A stretch of 37,097 nucleotides of DNA, from assembly GCA_903900705.1 (NCBI GenBank), contig CAIUOG010000007.1:1-37097 (forward strand), read 5' to 3'. The translations under genes were made by a program, and so were the position numbers. Origin of the DNA: an uncultured Acidobacteriia bacterium (GTDB lineage: Bacteria; Acidobacteriota; Terriglobia; Bryobacterales; Bryobacteraceae). Numbering within the stretch: the first letter of the stretch is position 1; each line of letters starts with the position of its first letter. Under the pieces are notes generated by a model. The model saw only the letters and a program-made list of their open reading frames with translations. It searched no databases and was not told the DNA's origin. Below, one piece after another: positions 22,460 to 37,097 of this stretch.

Positions 22460-23668
22460 ATGCCCACGACCAATGGCGGCCCTAAGCGCTTCAGTCCCGC
22501 AAAGGTGGTGGTCTCACTGGCCGTGTTTGCGCTGGTCCTGAAGATATTGCTCGCGTACGTGACGCTGGGAACCAACGACGCCACCACGTGGGAAAACGAT
22601 CTGGTGAAACTCCGCGCGGACGGATTCGCGGAACTCTATCGTGACGGCGTCTACCTGCCCGATGATCCGGCACATCACTATCCTCAGTACTTCATCCATC
22701 CGCCTCCCGTACTGCACATCCTGAAAACCTTTGGCGCATTCGAGGAGTCGACCGGCCTGCCGCTGCGTTTCTGGCTGCGCCTGCTGTGCGCTTTTGCAGA
22801 CCTCGCCACGCTCTGCCTTGTATGGCGCATCCGGGGCCCGGGAACCGACTGGCGAGCGCTGGCTTTGCTCGCGCTTTCCCCCATCGGCATCACCATCTCC
22901 GGCTTTCACATGAATACGGACCCGGTGATGATCTGCTTCGTGGTGGCGAGTGTCTGGTTTGTGGAGCGGAAGCAGTTCGGCATCGCCGGGGTCGCCTTCG
23001 GGCTCGCCGCGGGGATCAAGCTGGTGCCGGTGCTTTTCGTTCCGGCCTTCCTGCTCTACCTGCCGGACCACCGGAACCGGCTGCGTTGGGCTCTGGCGGC
23101 ACTAGCGACGTGGCTGGTGATCGGCCTGCCGTATCTGGCGCGGGAACCGGGGCTCATCCTCAGCAGAATCCTTGGTTATGGGGGCTGGACCGGCTGGTGG
23201 GGAATCTATCTGCTGCTGCGCTTCCTGCTGATTGCGATGGGTTTTGACGCCCCCGCCGGTCTGCTCGCCGGTCCCGGCAAGTGGCTGGCACTCGCCTCCA
23301 TTGTGGCGATTCCGGTGTACCTGCGCCTTACGTGCCGCCGCCCGCCGCTGTTTGACCAGTGCGGCGCAGTCGTGTTCGCGTTTCTGTTGCTGAGTCCTGG
23401 CTTCGGATTCCAGTATCTGGCGTGGAGTTCGCCGTGGATTGTCGCGCTGGGCTTCGGTCCCACCGCGCGGTATTACCTGATCGCGGGCGCGTTCCTGACG
23501 GGTTCTTATGCACAGGCCGCCTGGGGCAGCGGCCTGCACGCCTATGCGAATTTCATGCGCAATGACCGGTTCAGCATGATGCTGGGGCCGTTCTGCTGGC
23601 TCGCCCTGGGCGTCGCTGCGCTGGGCTTTATCCGAAAACTGAAAGCAACTCCTGTCAGAGAGGTTTAA
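22460..23668 (+). CDS. GT-C type membrane glycosyltransferase (GT87/DUF2029-like)
   Basis: A 402-residue integral membrane protein with about ten helices. The first extracytoplasmic loop (GTNDATTWENDLVKLRADG, then HPPPVLHILK) holds an acidic residue where GT-C enzymes bind the polyprenyl-phosphate sugar donor. The overall pattern resembles DUF2029/GT87 mannosyltransferases. It probably adds a sugar to a lipid, glycan or protein outside the inner membrane. GAGGAG upstream supports the start. It converges on the secretin gene with a 14-base overlap. Its position next to the pilus locus could mean pilin glycosylation, but nothing shows this directly. Confidence 0.82.
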   Translation: MPTTNGGPKRFSPAKVVVSLAVFALVLKILLAYVTLGTNDATTWENDLVKLRADGFAELYRDGVYLPDDPAHHYPQYFIHPPPVLHILKTFGAFEESTGLPLRFWLRLLCAFADLATLCLVWRIRGPGTDWRALALLALSPIGITISGFHMNTDPVMICFVVASVWFVERKQFGIAGVAFGLAAGIKLVPVLFVPAFLLYLPDHRNRLRWALAALATWLVIGLPYLAREPGLILSRILGYGGWTGWWGIYLLLRFLLIAMGFDAPAGLLAGPGKWLALASIVAIPVYLRLTCRRPPLFDQCGAVVFAFLLLSPGFGFQYLAWSSPWIVALGFGPTARYYLIAGAFLTGSYAQAAWGSGLHAYANFMRNDRFSMMLGPFCWLALGVAALGFIRKLKATPVREV

Positions 23669-25157
23669 TCGCTCCCAGCGCGCCTGCCGGAGCCAACGCA
23701 CCCGCCGGCGCCGGAGCGTCGGAACCACCCAAAGCCGGGGCGGCCTGCGCCGGCGCCAGTTTCTCAAAGGGCACCGGCTTGACCGGCGGAGAGGCGGGCA
23801 CAGGGCCTGTTTTCTCCACTCCGGGCGTCCGCATTTCCCCAGCCGTGTTCGGCTTCATGAACTTCTCCGGCATTTCGACGTTCGGCGCAGTCATACCCGC
23901 CGGAACCGGACGCACGATCTCCGGCGTCACAATCACCAACAGTTCCGTATTGTTACGGCTGACCGACTGCGACTGGAAGAACTTGCCCAGCACCGGAATG
24001 TCGCCCAGAAACGGGATTTTTTCGAAAGTTTTCGTGAGCCGGTTGTCCAGCAACCCGCCGATGGCGAAGCTCTGGCCCTCGGCCAGTTCCACTTCGGTAC
24101 TCATCTTCCGGGTTGTGAGTGCCGGAACCGTGAACCCCTGCACGGTCAGACCGTTCGTGTAATCAAGCGCACTGACTTCGGGAGCAACATCCAGATGAAT
24201 GGTCCCGCGCGGTGTTCTTTTCGGCGTGAAGTTCAGGCGGATGCCGTACTCCCGGAACTGGATGGTGATCTGCCCCACACCGGAGCCGCCGCCCTGAATG
24301 GTGGGAAAGGGAAACTCGCCGCCGGCGAGAAAGCTGGCCTTTTTGCCGTCGATGGCGAGAACGTTGGGCTCGGCAAGAACCTGCAGCAGGCCCTGGGATT
24401 CCAGTGCCTTGATGGTTGCGCCCAGGTTCAGGTCCGGGCGCAGCACCAGCAGGTTCAGCGCATCACTCAACGTCACGGTGGCCGGCGCGTTCCCGGATTT
24501 CGTGATGGTCGGGGCAGAGAACTGCTGCGTGGTCACGCCGCCAACCGTGTTCGTCGCGCCGGTACTGAACAGGTTCATGCCCAGCGCGGTGCTCTTGCTG
24601 CGGTCGACCGAGGCAAACCGCACCTTCAGCAAAATCTGCGTTTCCACCTCCGGCGCATCCACGTAGAGCAGGTTGACGACCTTGCCCAAGGCTCCCGCGA
24701 TGGTGGCTGCGCGCTGCGCGCCCAGCAAATCGTTGACCTTGCCGCGCAGAAACAGCGTCTCGTTCTCAGCTGTCACGTCGATGGCCTGGCCCGGCAGTTC
24801 TTTCTTCAACTGGCGACGAACCGCGTCGAGCCGGTTATCGGACAGGAACGTGCTGGGCCGGACCGTTACGTCGAAGAACTGCTGACCGCCGGTTTGCTGC
24901 CAGAGAATAAGACTGGTGGTTCCGGGCGCCCTGCCATTCAACATCAGTTGTTGTGGGGCGATGACCGTGACTTCCGCGACATCGGACGATCCAACCGCGA
25001 CTTTCGTCACCGGCACCGCCGTGTTCACCAGGATGGACTTCCCGGCGCCAACAAAAAGTTCGTCCGGCGCCGCATCCTGCGCGACGGCGTTCCGGCCGGC
25101 ACTGAGCCCGGTCAGCAGAACCAGACCGGTCAGGGAAAAAGAAGATATACGCTTCAC
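23655..25157 (-). CDS. cpaC: Tad/Flp pilus secretin CpaC/RcpA
   Basis: A 500-residue outer-membrane secretin. A signal peptide ends near NAVAQ. The N-terminal pilus-assembly domain is at about 30-110 (VNTAVPVTKVAVGSSDVAEV), with a BON-like segment to about 165 (LRGKVNDLLGAQRAATIAG). The secretin core is at about 175-420, with the signature VELAEGQSFAIGGLLDNRL and VTPEIVRP. It forms the channel for the Flp pilus in the outer membrane. The tail is Pro/Ala-rich, longer than usual. The start overlaps the cpaB stop by four bases (ATGA), so the two are translationally coupled. Confidence 0.95.
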   Translation of the reverse strand: MKRISSFSLTGLVLLTGLSAGRNAVAQDAAPDELFVGAGKSILVNTAVPVTKVAVGSSDVAEVTVIAPQQLMLNGRAPGTTSLILWQQTGGQQFFDVTVRPSTFLSDNRLDAVRRQLKKELPGQAIDVTAENETLFLRGKVNDLLGAQRAATIAGALGKVVNLLYVDAPEVETQILLKVRFASVDRSKSTALGMNLFSTGATNTVGGVTTQQFSAPTITKSGNAPATVTLSDALNLLVLRPDLNLGATIKALESQGLLQVLAEPNVLAIDGKKASFLAGGEFPFPTIQGGGSGVGQITIQFREYGIRLNFTPKRTPRGTIHLDVAPEVSALDYTNGLTVQGFTVPALTTRKMSTEVELAEGQSFAIGGLLDNRLTKTFEKIPFLGDIPVLGKFFQSQSVSRNNTELLVIVTPEIVRPVPAGMTAPNVEMPEKFMKPNTAGEMRTPGVEKTGPVPASPPVKPVPFEKLAPAQAAPALGGSDAPAPAGALAPAGALGAIKPL

Positions 25158-26104
25158 TTACCGCCCTCGGAGGAGCGTTTGGCTCCATAAATCACTTCCA
25201 CTGCAACTGGCGCAGCCGCTTTGGGTTCCGGCTGGGACATCGCGGGAGCCGTGGCCTGCATCATCCCGGACATGTCCGGAAACACCGGAGGCCGGGGCGC
25301 GGTCCGCCGCACGACGGGCGGGGCAGGGGAGCGTGCCGGCGCCGGCGTCGGAGTATTCGCCTGTGGCGCGAAATCGTTGTCGGAGAAAAGGCGGGAGAGA
25401 ACCGCGCCTGACGTCTGGGCGATCTTCGTATCGAGCGGGTTGCGCAACACCAGCTGAATCCGCGTTTCCGCATTCGCCAGGCTTAGAATTTCCGCCTGAT
25501 CGGGAGTCACCAGCAGATTCACCACCTGCACCTGAGCGGGCTTGCCCTGCACATCCCGCGCAATATCGGTTCCGGCGGAAAGCACTTCCAGGTTTTGCAA
25601 CAGCGTTTTGACCTTGGTCCCGGAATTACCCAGGCTAACCCCAAAGGCGCTGCTGCCGCCGGAACTGGCGATCAGTACATCCACCCGCATACCCGGCGTC
25701 ACGAAGCCCGCGACACCGACCACGTCGTTTACCTTGACGGCGCAGGCCCGCATTCCGGGCGGAATCGTTGCCGCCAGTCCGCCACCGGAACCCAGCGCGG
25801 CAAGACGTGTCTCAAGTACCGGTTCGCCCGAATAGATCGGCGCGACCACTCCCCGGCCCACCAGCGGCTCCGGCTTGGCGTTCATCCCTTTCGCCAGCGA
25901 ACCCGGCCAGTCTGTAGTTGTGAGGTCCTGCGCGCGCAGCACCGTTCCCACTTCCAGATCATGCGCGGCAACCACCACCTGCGGGAATTTCTGGACCTGC
26001 GTACTGGCCGATAACTGATTCCGGGCCACCCTGTAAGCGATAAAGGTCACGGCCAGGGAAACCAGGAGCGCCACTGAGGCAATCACCAGGAGTCTGCGAT
26101 TCAT
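25154..26104 (-). CDS. cpaB: Flp pilus assembly protein CpaB/RcpC
   Basis: A 316-residue protein. A membrane helix (LLVIASVALLVSLAVTFIAY) is followed by a SAF domain (VVVAAHDLEVGTVLRAQDL) and the CpaB core (GMRACAVKVNDVVGVAGFVT, PGMRVDVLIAS, VVNLLVTPDQAEILSLANAE). The C-terminal third is a Pro/Ala-rich tail. CpaB sits in the periplasm and links the inner-membrane motor to the secretin. It is divergent from the TonB-C-like gene across 265 bases, so cpaB-cpaC probably has its own promoter, apart from the main tad operon. Confidence 0.93.
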   Translation of the reverse strand: MNRRLLVIASVALLVSLAVTFIAYRVARNQLSASTQVQKFPQVVVAAHDLEVGTVLRAQDLTTTDWPGSLAKGMNAKPEPLVGRGVVAPIYSGEPVLETRLAALGSGGGLAATIPPGMRACAVKVNDVVGVAGFVTPGMRVDVLIASSGGSSAFGVSLGNSGTKVKTLLQNLEVLSAGTDIARDVQGKPAQVQVVNLLVTPDQAEILSLANAETRIQLVLRNPLDTKIAQTSGAVLSRLFSDNDFAPQANTPTPAPARSPAPPVVRRTAPRPPVFPDMSGMMQATAPAMSQPEPKAAAPVAVEVIYGAKRSSEGGK

Positions 26105-26369: not shown

Positions 26370-27854
26370 ATGCAGACACTCGGGCTCAAATACCTGCATC
26401 TGTCCTCTTTCGCCGGCGTTCAGAAAAGCGCGACGGAGCGGGAAGCCGCATTCCAGGTGTTGCCCCCATCGCGTCGCACCGCCTCGTTTGCCGGTTCCGT
26501 TTTGGCACACGGCGCGGTATTCCTGTTTTCCGGTTTATTCTCGGAATACTCGGTTCCGGAAGCCGATCCCGGTCCACCACGCCACTATTCCCTCCAGCTT
26601 CTGAGGCTGAAACCCAACCCGGCTCCCTTCGATTTGACCGCCGCGATGTTTCGCTCTCCCCGACAAAAACTGGACGATCTTCAAGCGAAAAATACTCCGG
26701 AACCTCTGCCGGATCAGAGCCTGCAGGATTTCTCCCGCCGGGAGCGCCTGCAGCAGTGGCTCGACGCGGTCGAAAAAGAGATTCTGGAGGGGCAGCTCAT
26801 CACGGATTCTGATGAGCCGGCAGATGCCCCTCCGCGCCCGGTACTCTATTTCATTCCCTCCCACGAAAATCAGGCCTCTTCGGCGGTCTTACCTGCTGCC
26901 CGCGGCGCAGGCATTCCCAGGCCCGTCGCGCTACCGCCCGTGCTTGCGCCCGAAGTGACAGAGGACTTCAAAGCTTCTCTGGGCACGATCGTCTCCATGC
27001 TGAATCATGCGCTGCCCGCGCGCCCGATGGCGCCTCCGCCCGCCACGATTCCCACGCCCCGCGCTCCCTCCGTGGCCGCGCTGCCTCCCCCGCAACTCGC
27101 ACCGAAAGCAATCGTATCCGGAGCACCTTCCGCACTGAACGTGCAGCTTCCGGCCAGCGTGCAGCTTCCGACGAGAAGGATGGCTCCCCAGACGATCACA
27201 TCCACACCGCGCCCCTCCGGCGGAGGCAGAGCAGCCGGCATGCCGGAAGCACCCACTCTGGGCGTTGCGAGTCTGTCGCCCCAAAACCTGGCCTCCGCAA
27301 ACCTCGCCGGCCTGACCGGAACTCTGCCCATCGCCGTCCCAGGACCGGCGTCGCAACCCGGCATGGGAGCGCCGGCGGCCTTGCCCGGTCCCAAATCGGT
27401 ACGAATCGTGAAGCCGCAGAACGGTCGCTTCTCTACCGTGACAACTTCTTCATCCAGTGCCGTGGCCTTCCCCGGAACCGAAGGGCTGCTGCAGGGCAAG
27501 GTTGTCAACACCGCCTACGTGAATGTGGGTCTGAAGAAGAACTGGATCCTGCAATATGTGGTTTCCTCGGAAGAAAACGTCACCGGCGCGGCAGTTCCCG
27601 TGGAGGCTCCGTGGCCCTGGGTGATCGAGCGACCGGAAGAGGTGTCGATCGGAGGGAACGATTACGTCATCGTCCACGGCTTTATTCGCGCGTCGGGTCG
27701 TCTGGAAGATCTCGCGATGCAGCAGACCGAGGCGTTCCCCGGCAGCGAATTCCTGATGAAGCTGCTCAGCAACTGGGAATTCCGGCCCGCTTCCCGCAGC
27801 GGTACCCCCGCCACGGTCGAAATCCTGCTGATTATTCCCTCAATTGCAAAGTAG
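26370..27854 (+). CDS. Proline-rich membrane protein with TonB-C-like domain, inside the Tad locus
   Basis: A 494-residue protein. One membrane helix lies at about 38-58 (TASFAGSVLAHGAVFLFSGL), with basic residues before it. A helical stretch (LQDFSRRERLQQWLDAVEKE) and a long Pro/Ala/Ser-rich linker (about 160-350) follow. The C-terminal domain (about 370-494) ends in LLSNWEFRPASRSGTPATVE, which resembles the TonB C-terminal fold. This is the layout of an energy transducer or periplasm-spanning tether. It is the only plus-strand gene in the locus, divergent from cpaB and 9 bases from the end of the tadG-like gene. No ExbB/ExbD is nearby. A role in pilus assembly is inferred from position. Confidence 0.78.
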   Translation: MQTLGLKYLHLSSFAGVQKSATEREAAFQVLPPSRRTASFAGSVLAHGAVFLFSGLFSEYSVPEADPGPPRHYSLQLLRLKPNPAPFDLTAAMFRSPRQKLDDLQAKNTPEPLPDQSLQDFSRRERLQQWLDAVEKEILEGQLITDSDEPADAPPRPVLYFIPSHENQASSAVLPAARGAGIPRPVALPPVLAPEVTEDFKASLGTIVSMLNHALPARPMAPPPATIPTPRAPSVAALPPPQLAPKAIVSGAPSALNVQLPASVQLPTRRMAPQTITSTPRPSGGGRAAGMPEAPTLGVASLSPQNLASANLAGLTGTLPIAVPGPASQPGMGAPAALPGPKSVRIVKPQNGRFSTVTTSSSSAVAFPGTEGLLQGKVVNTAYVNVGLKKNWILQYVVSSEENVTGAAVPVEAPWPWVIERPEEVSIGGNDYVIVHGFIRASGRLEDLAMQQTEAFPGSEFLMKLLSNWEFRPASRSGTPATVEILLIIPSIAK

Positions 27855-27863
27855 GGCTCTTCC

Positions 27864-29399
27864 TTACTTCACCAGTGAAACGACTCCCCCGGCGGTATTG
27901 CCGCCGGTCGAATTTCCGTAAGGCAGCCGCATCGTGATGGTGGACGAACCGGAAATCGTTAGTTTGTCCGCCACAATCTGGCCGGTTGCCGTGGTGGCTC
28001 CGGAGGACCCGGAAATTGTCAGGCTGTTGTAGTTGGAGGTGTTGGCGTTATTTTCAGTCAGCAGGATGGTTCCCTTGACGTCCAGCGTGCCGCTGCAACT
28101 GAGGTTATGGTTATGGATACCGGTCGCAGTGGGGGCCTCCCAGATCACCAGGCCCTGATAGACGGATGAGGAAGGCGTACCGGTTAGCGACAGGCTGGAA
28201 GAACCGCTGACGTTCAGTACCGAAGTGCCTGTCAGGAAGATCAACTGCCCCTGTCCGGTAACGGCATCGCTCGAAAGCCCGCTGGCGCTGTACATATTCG
28301 AACCGTCGCCGACCACCAACCCCGTCGCTTGCATATAGTAAATCCCGGGGGCCATAACGCCGTTTGTGCTGTCTCCCAGCGAAATTCCGTTGGGGTAGAC
28401 GCCAGTGAAGTAAAGATTGCAGGGGTTGCCGCCGGACGGGCAGCCGAGGGCGGACCAACTCACGCCCTGCTGGCAGGCACGGGGGGCTCCCGCACCCACG
28501 TTGACGCTGCAGACGACCGGACTCGTAGTAAGACCAGATGTGCTCGGCGCTGTCACCGAAGCATAGGGGTTCACTCCGGGCGCTGTACTTACGCTGGTGG
28601 TCATGGCGCCGGCCGATCCGTTCTGTACAGAGCTGCTGCCGGTGATGCTGGAGGTCCCCATGGAGGAAAGGCTGCCGCCGGTTCCCGTCGTGCAACTCCC
28701 GTTATCGAGGGGACCCGCATGGGAAAGATCGATCGTGCTGGAACCCGTCACCTGGAACGACGCCGTGCTGCCACAGGCTCCTCCGGTTCCCGCGCAGGAA
28801 TCAATCGCGATCGCCATCTGTCCCCCCCCGCAGACCTTCAGAGTAGAGGTTCCCGTGACGCTGAGCGCATCGGGCAGATTGCCGCCCATGATCACAAGAG
28901 GGCTGCCGCTGTTTCCCGTGATGACCGCCGTCGATTGTGCCGCAATCTTCAGAGACGTGATACCCAGAACTTTCATCAGGGACGTCGGCGCCGGCCGGAT
29001 CAGCGTGATTCGTGCCGCGGCCGGTGAGTAGCTGCCGCTGATGGTGACGCCGCCAACGGACGTCGGGAAATCTACCTTTATGGTGTCGCCGTTATCCGCC
29101 GAAAAACCATTCAGGGAGGCATAAGCGCAGGGCGTCAGCGTCGACCGGGTGGCGCAGGTGAAGGTCGCGTTGCCAAACGCGTTTGCGCCTGTGTTGGTGC
29201 CGCCTTTGATGCTGCTGATCGCCGCCTGAGCAGCCGCGTCCGCCGCCGCCTGTGCCATCTGTCGCTGCGCGTACATCCGGGACATGTCGATCGCAAAGCC
29301 CAGCATGCCGATGAACACGACTCCCATGAGCAGGATCATCAGCAACAGCGCCTGTCCCCGGTTTTTCCGCCCGTAGTGCAATTTCAGTTTTCCCTTCAT
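27864..29399 (-). CDS. TadG-like protein with Ser/Thr/Gly-rich repeat passenger
   Basis: A 511-residue protein. The N-terminus is the TadG/TadE-like Flp anchor: RGQALLLMILLMGVVFIGML, then DMSRMYAQRQMAQAAADAAA. The remaining 450 residues are rich in Ser, Thr, Gly and short beta-prone repeats (VTGTSTLKVCGGGQ, VTGSSTIDLSHAG, LNVSGSSSLSLTGTP, LTISGSSTITMRL), which suggest a right-handed beta-helix. The usual VWA domain of TadG is not seen. The ATG at 29399 was preferred over an upstream TTG because of the GGAG/AAGG ribosome sites. It is the last gene of the main tad operon. Confidence 0.85.
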   Translation of the reverse strand: MKGKLKLHYGRKNRGQALLLMILLMGVVFIGMLGFAIDMSRMYAQRQMAQAAADAAAQAAISSIKGGTNTGANAFGNATFTCATRSTLTPCAYASLNGFSADNGDTIKVDFPTSVGGVTISGSYSPAAARITLIRPAPTSLMKVLGITSLKIAAQSTAVITGNSGSPLVIMGGNLPDALSVTGTSTLKVCGGGQMAIAIDSCAGTGGACGSTASFQVTGSSTIDLSHAGPLDNGSCTTGTGGSLSSMGTSSITGSSSVQNGSAGAMTTSVSTAPGVNPYASVTAPSTSGLTTSPVVCSVNVGAGAPRACQQGVSWSALGCPSGGNPCNLYFTGVYPNGISLGDSTNGVMAPGIYYMQATGLVVGDGSNMYSASGLSSDAVTGQGQLIFLTGTSVLNVSGSSSLSLTGTPSSSVYQGLVIWEAPTATGIHNHNLSCSGTLDVKGTILLTENNANTSNYNSLTISGSSGATTATGQIVADKLTISGSSTITMRLPYGNSTGGNTAGGVVSLVK

Positions 29400-29432
29400 A
29401 TGCTCCAGCCTTCGCTTCAACAGTCCCTGTCT

Positions 29433-29927
29433 CTAATTCGTAATCACGCCTTCGGCAATGCTTCCCAATCGCATGGTGATCGGGAGATAGGTAAAAAACG
29501 GGTCGTAAGGGTAAACGATCTTCACGCTGACCCGGCTGCCCTTCGTATTCGTGCCATCCGGATACGTCACCGTAATCGCAACGTTCGATGTCTTCATCAG
29601 GCTCCGACTCGTCCACGTGGTTGCGACGGCCACAACCTGAGTCGGGTTATTCCCCGGGCCGCTTGGCCCGTCCACGCCGGAACCAGTGCGGGTACTGCCG
29701 TGCGTCACGGCATATCGGACGGCAACCCTGGCCGCGTTTGCCACCGATGTGGAGACCAGCACCGCGCGACAGAAATCAATCACTGCAAAAAATACGGTGA
29801 ACAGCACGAATGAAGTGATCGCAAACTCAATCATCATGCTGCCCCGCCGCGCCTGACGACTGCCACCCCAGACCCAGCCTCTCTGCGGAGCCCTCTGGCG
29901 CACAGGACTCGGAAAGAAGCCGGCCAT
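29433..29927 (-). CDS. tadE: TadE-like minor pseudopilin
   Basis: A 164-residue protein. The N-terminal 29 residues are a basic leader. Gly29 is followed by S-M-M-I-E34-F, which fits the G/X4E-F prepilin-peptidase site. The hydrophobic helix (FAITSFVLFTVFFAVIDFC) comes next. The C-terminal domain ends KIVYPYDPFFTYLPITM, typical of TadE. TadE and TadF are minor pilins needed for Flp pilus formation. The start shares one base with the stop of the PilZ-TadE gene (TGATG), so the two are co-translated. Confidence 0.9.
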   Translation of the reverse strand: MAGFFPSPVRQRAPQRGWVWGGSRQARRGSMMIEFAITSFVLFTVFFAVIDFCRAVLVSTSVANAARVAVRYAVTHGSTRTGSGVDGPSGPGNNPTQVVAVATTWTSRSLMKTSNVAITVTYPDGTNTKGSRVSVKIVYPYDPFFTYLPITMRLGSIAEGVITN

Positions 29928-30799
29928 CAGGTTGTCAACCTCATCACAGCCCGGCGATGCACCACCGTCGGTGGCAGCGTGAGCGAAATGTGCAGGGAGG
30001 GAATGCTGAATACGGAAATCAGCGGCTTATACGTATAGGTGACATCCACGCACGCGAGCGTATAGAGCGTCGGTTCCGGGTCGGCGGGAGGTGTTGCGGT
30101 GCAGGTGCCCTGTCCCGGGCAGGTGATCGTTCCGTTGGCGTTGCGCGAATACACCACCGACACGGACGCCTTGTTCTTCAGGGATGCGGTTGTGTCCGCG
30201 ACCACCGTGGTGATCTGCGAATACGTGGTCGTACTGGTCGAACCATACTGAACCCCGGTCCGCGCCGCATCGGCAATCGTGATCCAGGCGAAAATGAAGG
30301 CCCCGAAGTTCACCGCGTTGATGATGAGCAGAAACATCAGCGGGATAATCAGCGAAAGCTCAATCAGTGACTGGCCGCCCTCATTCGACTTTGCCGCTTT
30401 GGTTACCGCTCCCCCGGTCAGCGAGGTTTCGAGCAATGCTTTCAGACCGGCTTTTTCTTTTGCCGTCAGATCCACGAACTGCAGCCCCACTCCGTCCGAA
30501 CCATGGCGAACCACTTTTGCCCAGAGCATCACGGCGCTGAACGAGGGTACGGCGTCTTTCTGGGACGGAGAGATTCGTCCGGTCTGCAGCGCCAGACGCA
30601 CCAGCGTGCCGGGGTACCAGCGTTGCTCGGTGTATAGGTAAGTCCCGGTAAGGCTGATGTCGCGCAGTTGATGAGGCGACGGCGTGCCGCCCTCATAATA
30701 GAACGCAGTAATGGCGGATGCGGCTCTGCGAGGCTCGCGCCGGCGTTCGGAGTCGCCCTGCAGCCACTTCTTCAGTCCTTGTAGGAAACTCGGCGGCAT
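29927..30799 (-). CDS. PilZ-TadE fusion protein
   Basis: A 290-residue fusion. Residues 18-125 are a PilZ domain: RRREPRR gives the RxxxR motif (Arg20/Arg24) and LRDISLTG gives DxSxxG (Asp47, Ser49, Gly52), the two c-di-GMP-binding motifs. Residues 140-290 are a TadE-like pseudopilin: NEGG/QSLIELSLIIPLMFLL, where a cut after Gly142 would leave Glu147 at position +5, as in known pilins. So the PilZ domain stands in place of the leader peptide, on the cytoplasmic side. The C-terminal domain includes a Cys pair (about CPGQGTC). It is followed by tadE. PilZ alone is a common fold; its joining to TadE is the unusual point. Confidence 0.9.
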   Translation of the reverse strand: MPPSFLQGLKKWLQGDSERRREPRRAASAITAFYYEGGTPSPHQLRDISLTGTYLYTEQRWYPGTLVRLALQTGRISPSQKDAVPSFSAVMLWAKVVRHGSDGVGLQFVDLTAKEKAGLKALLETSLTGGAVTKAAKSNEGGQSLIELSLIIPLMFLLIINAVNFGAFIFAWITIADAARTGVQYGSTSTTTYSQITTVVADTTASLKNKASVSVVYSRNANGTITCPGQGTCTATPPADPEPTLYTLACVDVTYTYKPLISVFSIPSLHISLTLPPTVVHRRAVMRLTT

Positions 30800-30825: not shown

Positions 30826-31242
30826 TCACACCAGTATCTCAACGTTCTTTGCCGTCAGGCAGGTTTCCATATTTTCCGGTGAACAAATCAGCAACTGATC
30901 GCCCGGTAGTGTTCCGGAAGCATACACGGTCCGCGCGGCCAGTTGCAGCACGCTGCGGCAGCGGCTCCGCACGGGTGAGATGCGGAACGTCCCCAGATTT
31001 TCCACCGTCAGCAGTACCCGGTTGTCGGCATCCAGATAGATCACATCAATCGGGAAAAGCAGCCCGATGGTGTGCACTCCCTGTGACGGCTTCACCCAAA
31101 TACCCTCGCCACTCTTCAGCCGCCCCCTGCCAATCAGGCCCCGGAGTCTGCTGAATGTGGTATCGGCGGTGCGGACGGAGAGGCTCAGAAAGGACTGTCG
31201 CGTCTGGTTATAAACGCATACCGTATCTTTCCGTTTGGCCAT
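30826..31242 (-). CDS. DUF192 protein
   Basis: A 138-residue protein. The DUF192 pattern is clear: TFSRLRGLIGRGRLKSGEGI, VHTIGLLFPIDVIYLDADN and VLQLAARTVYASGTLPGDQL. The ATG at 31242 was chosen because GGGAGG lies about 6 bases before it; a longer frame to 31326 has no such site. Many DUF192 proteins are secreted, but no signal peptide is seen here. Its function is unknown. It sits between the micro-ORF and the PilZ-TadE gene, 26 bases from the latter, so a role in the pilus system is inferred from position. Confidence 0.85.
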   Translation of the reverse strand: MAKRKDTVCVYNQTRQSFLSLSVRTADTTFSRLRGLIGRGRLKSGEGIWVKPSQGVHTIGLLFPIDVIYLDADNRVLLTVENLGTFRISPVRSRCRSVLQLAARTVYASGTLPGDQLLICSPENMETCLTAKNVEILV

Positions 31243-31382
31243 TGCGCGTCCTCCCGTCGTCCGCCAGACGGTCGCGGATTTTGTGGTCCGGATCGTATCC
31301 CCGGACTCTGTTTTGATGATTTCCATTGCCTCTGACTGACTCCTTCGGGCCAGAACAGAGCCAACGCTCCGCCTGATCCCGA

Positions 31383-31676: not shown

Positions 31677-31733
31677 GCCCGAACTGTTTCAATACGCCCG
31701 AACTGGATCAATACGCCCGACCTGAATCAATAC
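31677..31733 (-). repeat. Three 19-bp tandem repeats at the tadC stop
   Basis: Three units of 19 bp in a row (31677-31695, 31696-31714, 31715-31733) read GCCCGAactgtttCAATAC with small changes in the middle. The unit nearest tadC contains its stop codon, so the array looks like copies of the tadC 3' end. It fills the spacer between tadC and the micro-ORF. Confidence 0.8.
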
Positions 31734-32647
31734 GAAAGATACTGCGTAAACGAATCCAGCAGCGTAATCAGCGACGGTCCCATCAAAACCAGAAACATCG
31801 ACGGAAAAATAAACAGAACCAGCGGAAAAACCAGCTTGACTGTGGTCTTACTGGCCTTCTCTTCGAGTTGCTGGCGACGGTGCGTACGAAGCGTGTCGGA
31901 ATGCGCCCGCAACGCCCTGGTCACGCTGGTGCCGAACTGGTCCGCCTGGATCAGGACCGATGCGAGGGACCGGATCGTCTCCACATTCGTCCTGTCCGCA
32001 AATCCCCGCCACGCCTCGGCCCGGCCCCGGCCCGCCCGCTGTTCGAGTGTCAACAGTTTTAACTCGTCGCAGATTTCCGGCTGCAGTATCGAGAGTTCCG
32101 CCGTGGTTCTCACAATGGCGAGATCGATACTCAGCCCGGCCTCGATGCATACCACCAGCAGATCCAGAACGTCCGGCAGACCCATTCGGATCTGCTCCTG
32201 GCGACGCTTGATGCGCGAGTCCAGCCAGAAGTCCGGTATCAGGTAACCCAGTCCAAGAGCCATGGCGTAGAGAAAGAAGGCGCCATAGTCGAATTCCACC
32301 AGGAAGGTCAGCACAATGCAGAAGAACAGCGGAATCAAAGCTTTTGCGCCATAAAACATATTCATGGCGCTTTCGTCGCGGAATCCGGCGCGGATCATGC
32401 GTTTCTGCAGCACGGAAATTTCCGCGGAAGTACGCGGCACAAACCTCTGGAAAGGCCGGATCGCCGCCGTCAGCGAAGCCGCTCCCGCGGCCAGCGTGAA
32501 CCGCGGCGGCGGAGCGTCCTTTGAGTGCGAGGGGTGAATCGCCTCCGCCAACCGGTCAGCCCCGGACGGCGCCCGGTAGAACAAGGCAACGCCCGTGCTG
32601 AAAAGCACGATGTAGACGCCCGCGAAAACAATCAGCAGTATCAGCAT
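31727..32647 (-). CDS. tadC: Flp pilus assembly protein TadC
   Basis: A 306-residue inner-membrane protein of the T2SSF/GspF type. A helix lies at about 1-22, two or three more at about 97-140, and one near the end (VKLVFPLVLFIFPSMFLVLM). The T2SSF domain has the typical LPDVLDLLVVCIEAGLSID and LASVLIQADQFGTSVTRALR. TadC pairs with TadB to form the platform for the TadA motor. It starts 4 bases after tadB, so the two are coupled. Confidence 0.94.
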   Translation of the reverse strand: MLILLIVFAGVYIVLFSTGVALFYRAPSGADRLAEAIHPSHSKDAPPPRFTLAAGAASLTAAIRPFQRFVPRTSAEISVLQKRMIRAGFRDESAMNMFYGAKALIPLFFCIVLTFLVEFDYGAFFLYAMALGLGYLIPDFWLDSRIKRRQEQIRMGLPDVLDLLVVCIEAGLSIDLAIVRTTAELSILQPEICDELKLLTLEQRAGRGRAEAWRGFADRTNVETIRSLASVLIQADQFGTSVTRALRAHSDTLRTHRRQQLEEKASKTTVKLVFPLVLFIFPSMFLVLMGPSLITLLDSFTQYLSY

Positions 32648-32651
32648 CGTC

Positions 32652-33626
32652 TCAGACCTTGATGTTCACGATGGTATTGATGATCAGGACGCCCAGCCCC
32701 GTCATAATCCCCGACGCCCAGAGCAGCTTCACGCCCACCGCCGTTGTCCAGAGGACGCTCATGTGCTCCGGATCCATAAAATACATGCCCACGCCCAGAA
32801 CCACCGGAGCCAGCGACAACAGCAGCCCGGTCAGACGACCCTGCGCCGTGTGGACCTTGATCTGATTCTTCAGCCGCGTCCGTTCCCGCATGATGAACGC
32901 GACTTTTTCCAGAACCTCGGCCAGATTGCCGCCCGATTCCTGCTGGATCAGAATGGCGGTCACGGCAATCTGCAGATCCGGAACCGGCACTCGCGTAGTC
33001 AGATTCTTCATCGAAGTCCGGAGTTCCACCCCGAATTTCTGTTCGTCGGCGCATTGCCGCAATTCGCGGCGTATCGGCTCGGGCGATTCCACGGCGGCAA
33101 TCCCGATGGCCGAATTAATGCTGTGTCCGGCGCGCAAAGCGCCCACAATCAGCTCCAGCACCTCCGGCAGCTTGTTGCGGAAACCGTCCATCCGCGAGTT
33201 GCGCTGCGAACGAATGAACCAGAATGGCAGGACTCCCGCGGGCAACCCCAGCATGAGCGCGGGGAAAAAATCACCGGTCCGCCAGTAAATGACGTATGCC
33301 ACAATCAACCACGCAGAAACGCACCGGAGCAGAATTCGTGCCGGCGTCCACTGCAGATTCGCCTGGTACAGCCAAAGCTTCAGACGCGGTGCAATATCGG
33401 CTTCAATCAGCTTGCGGTTCAGCCAACTCAGCCCGCCGGCCGCGGCTTCCTTTTTCCGAATGTCCGCGACCTGGTCGTCGGCCTTCGTTTCATTACGCGA
33501 AATGACGGTATCGAGCCGTTCGAGGACCTGTTTCCGATTCGGGTCTCCGCCCCCGCCAAACGCGGCGAAGAACAGCGCCGTCACCAGAAACACGCTTACC
33601 GAAACTGCCAGCAGAAGAATCCACAT
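32652..33626 (-). CDS. tadB: Flp pilus assembly protein TadB
   Basis: A 324-residue inner-membrane protein of the T2SSF type. A first helix (ILLLAVSVSVFLVTALFFAA) is followed by a cytoplasmic part, two helices at about 98-140, the T2SSF domain (LPEVLELIVGALRAGHSINS, LIQQESGGNLAEVLEKVAFI) and two C-terminal helices. It forms the platform with TadC. The gene lies between tadA (26 bases) and tadC (4 bases), in the standard order. Confidence 0.95.
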   Translation of the reverse strand: MWILLLAVSVSVFLVTALFFAAFGGGGDPNRKQVLERLDTVISRNETKADDQVADIRKKEAAAGGLSWLNRKLIEADIAPRLKLWLYQANLQWTPARILLRCVSAWLIVAYVIYWRTGDFFPALMLGLPAGVLPFWFIRSQRNSRMDGFRNKLPEVLELIVGALRAGHSINSAIGIAAVESPEPIRRELRQCADEQKFGVELRTSMKNLTTRVPVPDLQIAVTAILIQQESGGNLAEVLEKVAFIMRERTRLKNQIKVHTAQGRLTGLLLSLAPVVLGVGMYFMDPEHMSVLWTTAVGVKLLWASGIMTGLGVLIINTIVNIKV

Positions 33627-33652: not shown

Positions 33653-34933
33653 TTATTCAACCGGAGTGACCCGCTCGAAAATCTCCACGGGCAGTTGAAT
33701 GCCGGCCACGCGAAGCTTCTCCAGAAACCGGGGGCGGATTCCCGTGGGCTCAAATGCCCCCGTGACTCTGCCGTCCGGACCAATGCCTTTTCTGCGGAAC
33801 ACGAAAATATCCTGCATGGAGATCACGTTTTCGTCCATTCCGGTGATTTCCGAGACGTTCACCACTTTACGGGTGCCGTCGCTCAGGCGCGATACCTGCA
33901 CCACGATTGTAATAGCCGCCGCGATCTGCTGCAGAATCGCTTTAGGAGGAAGGTTCAGGTTCGCCATCGCCACCATCGATTCCAGACGCGAAATCGCGTC
34001 GCGCGATGTGTTGGCGTGGATCGTTGTCATGGAGCCTTCGTGACCTGTGTTCATGGCCTGCAACATGTCGAAAGCTTCTTCGCCGCGGACCTCGCCGACG
34101 ATAATGCGGTCGGGGCGCATTCGAAGGCAATTGATCAGCAACTGCCGCTGCCGGATGGCGCCCGTGCCCTCCACGTTCGCTGCGCGGGTTTCCAGGCGAA
34201 CCACGTTTTCCTGCGCCAGGCGGAGCTCAGCCGCGTCCTCAATGCTGATCAGCCGCTCAGACGATGGAATGTAGCGCGAAAGAATGCTCAGAAAGGTCGT
34301 TTTGCCGGCGCCGGTTCCGCCCGAAATCAGAATACTGATCTTCGCCTGCACCGCCGCGGAAAGTACCGCGATCATCTCCGGCGACACGCTCTTCAGCTCA
34401 ATCAGTGATTCCGCGCGCAGGGGCCCGCCGCCGAAGCGGCGAATTGACAGCGCCGGTCCGTCCAGCGCCAGGGGAGGGATAATCGCGTTGATACGGGATC
34501 CGTCGGGCAGACGGGCGTCCACCATCGGCGAGGATTCGTCCACCCGCCGGCCGACGCGGGACACAATCCGCTCAATAATCTGCAGCAGATGGCGATCATC
34601 ACGGAACCGGATGCTGGCTTTCTGTACCTTGCCCGCCCGCTCGATAAACACCATGTCCTTGTTGTTGACGAGGATGTCCGATACGGTGGGATCGCGCAGC
34701 AGCGATTCGAGCGGACCGAGACCGAAAACTTCATCCAGAAGGTCAGTCTGGATGCGCTCCTTCTCCGTTGCGTTCAGCGGACGGTTCTGTTCAAGGACGA
34801 TCTGATTGACCATCACCGCCACGGCATGACGCGCGCGGCTGTTTTCAATGGTCGCCAGCTTTTCCAGATCCACCTGTGAGATCAGGAGCCGGTGAACCTC
34901 GCCCTTAAATGTTTCGAAATCGAGTGCGTCCAT
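33653..34933 (-). CDS. tadA: Flp pilus motor ATPase TadA/CpaF
   Basis: A 426-residue secretion ATPase. The Walker A site is GGTGAGKTT (205-213, Lys211). The Asp and His boxes follow. The Walker B region is [19 protein letters not shown], and the family motif [16 protein letters not shown] is complete. The N-terminal domain ([18 protein letters not shown]) matches the CpaF type. The hexamer drives pilus polymerisation, and in some systems retraction. All catalytic parts are intact. Confidence 0.96.
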
Positions 34934-34969: not shown

Positions 34970-36217
34970 CTATCGAAACAATCCGAACTTTTTCTTCACT
35001 TCCGTGGTCTGCGGTTTTCCGCACACGGCGCGCGCCATCCTGGTAAGCACTTTCGTGATCGGACCCGCCGGGTTGGACGCGAGCGGCACGCCGGTATTCT
35101 GCGCCTCCCGAACACTGTTAAAGTGATTCGGAATATTCCAGTTCGCCGGGGTGGTCAGCGCCTTGGCGATCCGGTTCTCGTCAATTTCAATGGTGCGGGA
35201 GTCATGCCGGTTCACCACCACCTCGACCGTTTGCGGACGTTCCCGCTCGGAGAACCAGGTGATCAGCCGGTTTGCTGCGCGCAGCGCCGGAATGCTCACT
35301 TCCGTCACAAGGTAAACGCTGTCCGCCACATCGAGCAGGGCTTCGTGCATTTTTCCCACATTGGCGCCGGCGTCCACCACAATGTAGTCGAATTCTTCTT
35401 TAAGTAGACGGAACAGGCGGGGCGCGCCACTTTCCATGGACGAAACCGGAGTGTACTCCTCGGGTCCCGCCAGAACCTGCAGTCCGGAGCCGTGCTTCGA
35501 GAGCAGAGTGGCCAGAAAATCCTTGTCCAGACGTTCGGCGTGCAGGAGTGCGTCCACCACCGAGAACCGGCAGTTCATGCCCAGAATTAAAGCCGCGTCG
35601 CCCATACGGACGTCCAGATCCACCAGCACTACTTTCGCTCCGGACTCTTTGGCGAGGCACAGCGCAAAATTGCTGGCGATCGTGGTCACTCCCGAACCGC
35701 CTTTGGCGCCCGTAAAAGCGAGAATCCGGCCACGCACCTTCTTCTTGATCGTCAGATCGGGGCGGCGGGCGGCGGCGCGCACCAGTGCATCGGTCAGTGC
35801 GCTGGTCTGGACAGGTTCAATCAGGAATTCGCGGGCGCCGGCCCGCATGCAGTTCATCAGCAGTTCCGGATCGGCCGAAAGCGAGTAGGCCATCACCGTG
35901 ATGGAAGGATCGGACGCGCAGATGGTCTCAATCAGATCCACCGCTTGCCCCGGATCTGCCGCCAGATCGACGATCACGACTTCGCAACCCGCCGTTTCGC
36001 TGATGATGTCGCGCGGTTCCGGGTAGTTCCTCAGTTCCGTCTGAATTTCAACATGCTGGTTGGCCAGTGCGGAACGGATTTTCTGCCGACGGGCTTCCTG
36101 TGGCCCGACCAGAGCCACCGTTAGCTGTTGCATGTTGACATGTGTTGCGTCTGTCCGCGGTTCGCTCATTCTGGATCCAACCTGGGGCAGTATGTTTTTC
36201 AAGTCACCGACCCGCAT
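34970..36217 (-). CDS. tadZ: Pilus polar-localisation protein TadZ/CpaE
   Basis: A 415-residue protein. A receiver-like domain (about 30-155) has Asp84 at the usual phosphorylation position (VVIVDLAADP). A ParA/MinD-type ATPase follows. Its deviant Walker A is KGGSGVTT (Lys172; Val177 in place of the second Lys). VVLVDLDVRMGDAAL and FDYIVVDAGAN are the other ATPase motifs. TadZ places the Tad machine in the cell. AAAGGA upstream supports the start. The P-loop change suggests weak or absent ATP hydrolysis, as known for some TadZ proteins. Confidence 0.94.
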   Translation of the reverse strand: MRVGDLKNILPQVGSRMSEPRTDATHVNMQQLTVALVGPQEARRQKIRSALANQHVEIQTELRNYPEPRDIISETAGCEVVIVDLAADPGQAVDLIETICASDPSITVMAYSLSADPELLMNCMRAGAREFLIEPVQTSALTDALVRAAARRPDLTIKKKVRGRILAFTGAKGGSGVTTIASNFALCLAKESGAKVVLVDLDVRMGDAALILGMNCRFSVVDALLHAERLDKDFLATLLSKHGSGLQVLAGPEEYTPVSSMESGAPRLFRLLKEEFDYIVVDAGANVGKMHEALLDVADSVYLVTEVSIPALRAANRLITWFSERERPQTVEVVVNRHDSRTIEIDENRIAKALTTPANWNIPNHFNSVREAQNTGVPLASNPAGPITKVLTRMARAVCGKPQTTEVKKKFGLFR

Positions 36218-36298: not shown

Positions 36299-36820
36299 TT
36301 ACGCGGGCAGGGTAAAGAAAGAAAACAATGTGCCCAGCGCGATGGCGGGCGCATAAGGCATTTTGAGCGCAACAGGATTGCCAAGCTGCAACTTCTCGTG
36401 AGGCTTCAGACCACGCCTGCGGAAACCGCTCAGCAAATCCCCGGCTCCATCAAGAGACTCGCCCAGCCGACCCTTGGCGGCCGCCCAGATGACGGCCATA
36501 ACGCCGCCTGTAATCGCAGTCATGACAAGCGCCGTGGTCAGTTGTTCCGGGCCAATCCATGCGCCAATGGCCGCGCAAAGCTTGAGGTCGCCCATGCCCA
36601 TCCCCCGCAAAAAACAAAGTACTCCGGTTACGGCCACTGCCAGCAGGATGCCTTCCCCGCTGTTCGCAGCCCCGGCCCATCCCCCCTGCATCACCGAAAA
36701 AGTGAAGCCTCCCGCGAGGAATGGAAGTACAAGCCAGTTGGGAATACGGCGACTTCGAAGATCTGTCGCGGTAGCCACAACCAGCAAAGTGACAATCGAC
36801 CACCATGTGAAGGAATGCAT
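36299..36820 (-). CDS. tadV: Prepilin peptidase TadV/CpaA
   Basis: A 173-residue membrane peptidase. The two catalytic aspartates are Asp20 (TDLRSRRIPN) and Asp78 in the GxGD motif (GMGDLKL). Four or five helices surround them. It is the short, peptidase-only form without the methylase domain. It should process the Flp pilin and the TadE-like proteins at G/X4E sites, including the PilZ-TadE fusion. It lies between the flp pilin and tadZ. A hairpin precedes its start. Confidence 0.94.
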   Translation of the reverse strand: MHSFTWWSIVTLLVVATATDLRSRRIPNWLVLPFLAGGFTFSVMQGGWAGAANSGEGILLAVAVTGVLCFLRGMGMGDLKLCAAIGAWIGPEQLTTALVMTAITGGVMAVIWAAAKGRLGESLDGAGDLLSGFRRRGLKPHEKLQLGNPVALKMPYAPAIALGTLFSFFTLPA

Positions 36821-36944: not shown

Positions 36945-37097
36945 CTAGCTGGTGTAGGTGGTCATCTTGGTGCCGACGTTGGTGAAGCCGGTCGCGATGT
37001 TGGTGGCGAGGGTCTTCATGGCGGCGACGGAACCAAACGCGATCAGCGCGGCGACGAGAGCGTATTCGATCAGGTCCTGGCCGTCTTCGAGGATGCA
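36945..37097 (-). CDS. flp: Flp/Fap-type pilin, C-terminal part (cut by window edge)
   Basis: Fifty codons of a minus-strand gene that continues past the window. The readable part has DGQDLIEYALVAALIAFG, the Flp pilin core: the cut is after Gly, with Glu at +5 and Tyr at +6. It ends NVGTKMTTYTS and a TAG stop. The N-terminal leader is outside the window. This is the major pilin of the Tad system, heading the operon. Confidence 0.93.
   Translation of the reverse strand, partial: CILEDGQDLIEYALVAALIAFGSVAAMKTLATNIATGFTNVGTKMTTYTS

Follow-up and report, generated by a model that had tools for sequence, protein, structure and literature searches.

Why would a putative c-di-GMP receptor domain stand in the leader position of a pseudopilin, and which part of the pilus would it serve? 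The question was raised by a minus-strand gene of 290 aa (29927..30799) in the window, the whole 37,097-nucleotide stretch of DNA analysed here, which an earlier note had read from the letters as a PilZ domain joined to a TadE-like pilin. The open reading frame and Pfam bore this reading out. YcgR-type PilZ proteins are c-di-GMP receptors, and like them the N-terminal part of the window protein is a PilZ domain by profile (PF07238, residues 18–124, 30428..30748, minus strand; E 9.4e-11, 42.4 bits against a Pfam cut-off of 22.5), with the motifs RxxxR and [DN]xSxxG readable in the sequence as the note had described them, the first at R20-R24 (30728..30742, minus strand) and the second, as DxSxxG, at D47-S49-G52 (D47-G52, 30644..30661, minus strand). 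TadE (PF07811) matched residues 142–183 (30251..30376, minus strand; E 7.3e-8, 32.9 bits against a cut-off of 22.9), the start of the putative mature minor pilin, and the match began at G142, at the hydrophobic N-terminal helix. A class III site with Gly(-1) at G142 and Glu(+5) at E147 (G142/QSLIE147, 30359..30376, minus strand) lies at this junction, and conservation of the two residues predicts a prepilin peptidase cut between G142 and Q143. The PilZ domain stands ahead of this site, in the leader position claimed for it, and the Pfam boundaries agree; judging from pilin topology, it would lie in the cytoplasm. The short hydrophilic leader typical of TadE is absent, the window leader being 142 aa long and containing a domain.

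By eye, no in-frame ATG, GTG or TTG from which TadE alone might start was found in the window linker after the last PilZ helix, and one TTG was seen inside that helix. An AlphaFold single-sequence model of the window protein alone had a pLDDT of 39.4 and was unusable for judging the PilZ beta-barrel fold. A profile of 13 PilZ domains from the same operon position in related loci gave one match against the PDB, 8u0i (E 0.0021), named PilZ domain-containing protein.

The gene belongs to a tad operon, which on the minus strand runs in the order Flp, A24 peptidase, TadZ, TadA, TadB, TadC, DUF192, fusion, second TadE, TadG, RcpC and RcpA. The Flp major pilin (36945..37097), named by motif and size, has a G/QDLIEY site and has lost its start at the contig end. 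The A24 prepilin peptidase (36299..36820; PF01478, E 3.2e-19) is the expected processing enzyme, and its translation shows TD (D20) and GxGD, which we take to be the catalytic motifs. Profile scans identified a TadZ/CpaE-like ATPase with a receiver-like N-terminus (34970..36217) and the TadA/CpaF motor ATPase (33653..34933); two T2SSF platform proteins, assigned to the family by Pfam, owe the names TadB (32652..33626) and TadC (31727..32647) to gene order. A DUF192 gene (30826..31326; PF02643) lies directly upstream of the fusion gene. At the far end are a putative RcpC/CpaB homologue (25154..26104) and a putative RcpA/CpaC secretin homologue (23655..25157), both named from position; their counterparts at related loci keep this order. 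The tip genes comprise a second TadE-like pseudopilin (29433..29927, by Pfam), which overlaps the fusion gene as TGATG, and a TadG-like protein (27864..29420; Tad, PF13400, by Pfam), the probable tip backbone if its role is as in the Kil Tad pilus described in excerpts of PMC12075869.

Relatives were sought with the fusion protein as query in 399 genomes of the class, and with a 12-row alignment of fusions in 237 genomes of the family, 396 of the phylum, and 2, 62 and 19 of three genera. We defined a locus clade by TadC at E 1e-70 or better, which retained 35 of the 399 class and 21 of the 237 family genomes (46 different genomes). All TadC-clade loci, together with G476, which the alignment of fusions picked up, and five that came from searching the genera, made up a set of 54 loci in 52 genomes, at which domains were assigned by phmmer with the window proteins; seven further stretches (L045, L049, L052, L108, L117, L120 and L141) were inspected, proved not to be such loci and were left out. 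Mapping the taxa with PilZ and TadE in one protein, as had been suggested earlier, placed the fusions in two families of one class only; none was found outside the class among the 396 phylum genomes, an unspecified share of which lies outside the class. Exact peptide patterns, which reach close relatives only, hit one locus among genome contigs, that of a genome of the window's genus (G293). A sequencing error or a chance fusion was ruled out, the fusion being in one frame at 20 of the 54 annotated related loci and in both families.

At these loci the slot bounded by TadC on one side and by the tip genes or RcpC on the other turned out to hold several architectures. PilZ was fused to TadE at 20 slots (including G442, in which a run of N interrupts the gene after the TadE start), stood alone at 12, was fused to a homologue of the window's DUF192 protein at 11 and to TadG at one; of the remainder, three had a degenerate or remnant leader before TadE, six had no PilZ that we could find, and one was cut by the contig end. 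Among 12 fusions scanned with Pfam, all reached the TadE cut-off and nine the PilZ cut-off, the other three being G165, G155 and G899; neither G165 nor the unfused PilZ beside it gave a PilZ match in Pfam, nor did G899 or G529, and G155 scored below the cut-off, some PilZ assignments depending on the clade's own profile. Of two DUF192-PilZ proteins given to Pfam, one showed both domains and the other PilZ only, and the PilZ-TadG protein showed PilZ at 30–123, Tad at 189–234 and Tad_C at 233–319. In this last protein (L119:8434-10188, 584 aa), PilZ again ends shortly before the N-terminal hydrophobic helix. In G165 (L043:7371-10828), the DUF192-PilZ unit is present twice, and the second PilZ alone is fused to TadE. 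Relatives with PilZ on its own, or attached to other pilus genes, suggest that the domain regulates the pilus machine as a part that can be detached.

Whether PilZ goes with the machine or with the tip could be read from loci at which the two halves have parted. At ten loci the stretch retrieved contained the machine genes and PilZ, but no tip gene was detected in it, and 42–210 nt separated PilZ from the next detected gene. In G285, a free PilZ ORF that keeps DxSxxG and lacks the strict RxxxR precedes a decayed TadE, and a set of TadE, TadE2 and TadG lies on another contig. TadE was intact with a scrambled PilZ in G407 and G293 and present without PilZ in G371 and G403; with no PilZ found at six slots and a degenerate leader at three, the domain is thus dispensable in some lineages. 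G340, sister of a DUF192-PilZ locus, kept a lone PilZ with no DUF192 detected ahead of it, and PilZ is thus not tied to DUF192.

Moreover, the whole tip cassette (mature TadE, TadE2 and TadG) has been exchanged between two loci from genomes of one genus, L040 (6986 to ~9345) and L105. Between G252 and G489, the latter a draft 88% complete with 6% contamination, identity was 92% in TadC, 94% in DUF192 and 86% in the PilZ leader (TadB, a contig-edge piece, was left out), against 56% in TadE, 51% in TadE2 and 51% in TadG, and rose again to 88% in the opposite-strand gene, 93% in RcpC and 97% in RcpA; it began to drop within ~10 codons past the cut site. Among the close pairs compared, a swap of this kind was seen in this one only. 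A further comparison, between G295 and G902 (a draft 88% complete with 7% contamination), gave 80–93% identity in A24, TadZ, TadA, TadB, TadC, DUF192, RcpC and RcpA, while TadE1 of G902 shared 54–66% with those of seven fused lineages and 37% with its G295 counterpart. The tip genes of G902 are thus closer to those of PilZ-TadE lineages, a second instance of tip genes being replaced close to the cut site. The lone PilZ of G902 grouped with those of G200 and G295 (support 98/94) and was only 55% identical to that of G295, so it is the tree that keeps it with the machine. By eye, the TadE leader of G902 (L139:8434-9111) looks like a relic of a TadG N-terminus that runs into the final PilZ helix; tip exchange may have left it as a scar. 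PilZ has thus kept its place next to the machine genes despite being split off, joined to other partners or given a new set of tip genes. Judging from the alternative architectures, the independent decay of the halves and the exchange of tips with PilZ retained, the domain most likely belongs with the cytoplasmic Tad machine and works for it, not for the tip.

We propose that the gene product is a pre-pilin with a PilZ receptor domain as its leader. The TadE helix would insert in the inner membrane while the PilZ part remains cytoplasmic, and the A24 peptidase of the operon would cut after Gly142, releasing the mature minor pilin destined for the Tad tip. PilZ would thereby be set free, the state that many relatives encode outright and that the cut would restore. 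The free domain would then act in trans on the motor or platform, placing pilus assembly or retraction under c-di-GMP-responsive control, and the fusion would link synthesis of the domain with synthesis of a tip subunit. We put the chances that the leader is cut off TadE and then regulates the Tad machine in this way at about even; in this scheme the cut, the binding of c-di-GMP and the action on the machine or motor are inferred. A bolder version, which we regard as rather doubtful, makes the leader a releasable signalling protein: each tip subunit would free one c-di-GMP receptor at the base of the pilus, the peptidase would arm a motor regulator, and the cut site would separate the conserved machine from an exchangeable tip cassette.

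The leader and its cut site fit such processing. G(-1) and E(+5) were kept in 21 of 21 sequences (the 20 fusions and the degenerate relative G434), and the A24 peptidase of the operon would be expected to cut the window protein after G142. Leaders measured 129–250 aa in the 20 fusions and 126 aa in G434; most were taken to begin at the earliest start codon in the ORF (one was trimmed by alignment), and some lengths may thus be too long. Six of seven compared pairs had a dN/dS of 0.12–0.45 in the leader half, the seventh being saturated, and mature TadE gave 0.04–0.21 (seven pairs, of which three were close to saturation); by these ratios the leader is under purifying selection. Such selection, together with the fusion being kept at 20 of 54 loci, would also be expected if the attached PilZ acted in cis, controlling the cutting or extraction of TadE or the priming of the pilus, with tip assembly answering directly to c-di-GMP. 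In G206, G135 and G155 almost nothing separates the final predicted PilZ helix segment from the cut site, which favours this reading, and TadEFG minor pilins have been proposed to prime polymerisation (excerpts of PMC12075869). However, a leader of such variable length, a TadE retained with a scrambled PilZ or none, and the ten loci that keep PilZ without an adjoining tip gene all speak against control in cis, as does G165, in which the fused PilZ lacks DxSxxG and the neighbouring unfused PilZ keeps both motifs. We consider this alternative unlikely. The earlier note had offered two mechanisms, gating of TadE processing or extraction by c-di-GMP and signalling by the freed PilZ to the motor; the first is weakened by the range of leader lengths, the independent decay of PilZ or TadE, the other slot architectures and the TadE-linked domains that lack one or both strict motifs, and the second is the better fit.

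If PilZ is released and acts in trans, the join itself might be an accident that is tolerated: overlapping genes became fused, the leader is removed anyway, and the join costs nothing and adds only equal expression, PilZ working just as proposed above. A ready route exists, since in G474 the PilZ stop and the TadE start overlap as ATGA and the two are thus easily joined, and PilZ has indeed been fused to different neighbours (DUF192, TadE and TadG). On a tree of TadZ, TadA, TadB and TadC from 49 loci (a quick tree, with several long rows flagged), the architecture states needed 15 changes; the TadE-fused state needed nine, at least six of them forced by well supported branches, which favours this reading. 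Nevertheless, the fused state was clustered on this tree (2 of 500 label shuffles were as low) and persists in two families, as if retained, and we judge a costless accident to be about as improbable as control in cis. Separately, TadA is split into two adjacent ORFs in G434 (L106:11813-13092) and G077 (L133:6052-7399), possibly through frameshifts or assembly errors.

A c-di-GMP-responsive regulator released from TadE should be able to bind the ligand. Both strict motifs were present in 33 of 46 slot PilZ domains: 15 of 21 TadE-linked, 8 of 13 lone (a set that includes the unfused PilZ of G165), 9 of 11 DUF192-linked and the single TadG-linked one. The remaining 13 lacked RxxxR only (five), DxSxxG only (four) or both (four), and six of the 21 TadE-linked domains were among them. 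In the alignment of the 46 domains, the motif residues ranked 12 (R20), 9 (R24), 25 (D47), 10 (S49) and 5 (G52) among 122 columns in conservation. On this distribution and conservation, binding of c-di-GMP may be a property of most members and is probably absent from some.

The losses raise the alternative of a motor chaperone or adaptor for which the ligand motifs are dispensable. Its model is the PilZ of type IVa pili, a separate protein of ~120 aa that binds PilB and not c-di-GMP (excerpts of PMC11656802). Yet both motifs persist in 33 of the 46 domains, although PilZ fell below TadA in conservation in each of the 11 pairs compared, and the columns of the motif residues stand among the better conserved ones; a ligand-independent adaptor is, in our view, the least probable of the alternatives. 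In a PilZ tree, seven domains from outside the slot fell inside the slot group, with weak support and three changes, and a single unbroken slot lineage is thus not established.

A PilZ receptor that regulates the Tad machine would have precedents by analogy in the type IVa PilZ acting on PilB (excerpts of PMC11656802) and in the effect of c-di-GMP on Caulobacter Tad pili (excerpts of PMC6581867). With PilZ-PilB and with MshE it would share the action of a PilZ protein or of c-di-GMP on a pilus motor, which is putative here; it differs from the type IVa PilZ in that the latter is a separate protein that does not bind c-di-GMP and the window domain is fused to a pilin. What sets it apart from the YcgR-type receptors is its place in the leader of a class III signal peptide protein, a leader that is expected to be removed. 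With the TadE/TadF pseudopilins of Tad (type IVc) pili it shares the TadE profile match, the G/x4E site and a tad operon with an A24 peptidase, whereas its leader, at 129–250 aa and with a domain, compares with the 6–26 aa, located in the cytoplasm, given in excerpts of one review (PMC4471445). Leader length alone is no proof of novelty, since Streptococcus sanguinis pilins have 'very long' leaders, with no figure in the excerpts of PMC10191384, where leader length is called variable in general.

Closer in gene content are pelagic Zetaproteobacteria, in which PilZ genes with RxxxR and (D/N)x(S/A)xxG adjoin tad genes and c-di-GMP control has been proposed (PMC5513912); there, too, a motif-bearing PilZ lies next to tad genes, but as an adjacent gene, and the excerpts of that paper do not mention a pilin fusion. 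The Kil Tad pilus of Myxococcus likewise has interchangeable tips made of TadEFG-like minor pilins, but four tips coexist there (excerpts of PMC12075869) and here tip genes are exchanged at one locus; the word PilZ is absent from the text of that paper. In a literature search, with many subscription journals outside it, none of the matches listed described a prepilin whose leader is a folded regulatory domain, or a PilZ-TadE fusion. Whether encoded as the leader of TadE or as a neighbouring gene, a PilZ domain within the tad operon offers a concrete candidate for the receptor, at least in this class, and the idea can be tested on the fused, split, swapped and decayed forms that occur naturally among relatives.

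Some minor observations concern neighbouring genes. The second TadE pair of the window's genome lies on another contig (C5), on which neither PilZ nor this type of TadABC was detected in 19.5 kb. The DUF192 protein gave no match against the PDB, and a literature search combining DUF192 and pilus gave only apparently unrelated papers among the matches listed; a second DUF192 homologue follows RcpA in several loci (L035, L037-L042, L105, L116, L118, L119, L122 and others). Finally, a gene of 494 aa on the opposite strand (26370-27854, plus strand) lies between the tip genes and RcpC. It gave no match in Pfam or NCBIfam at E 0.01; homologues were present in 30 of the 53 other loci, and by eye its C-terminus resembles TonB C-terminal domains.
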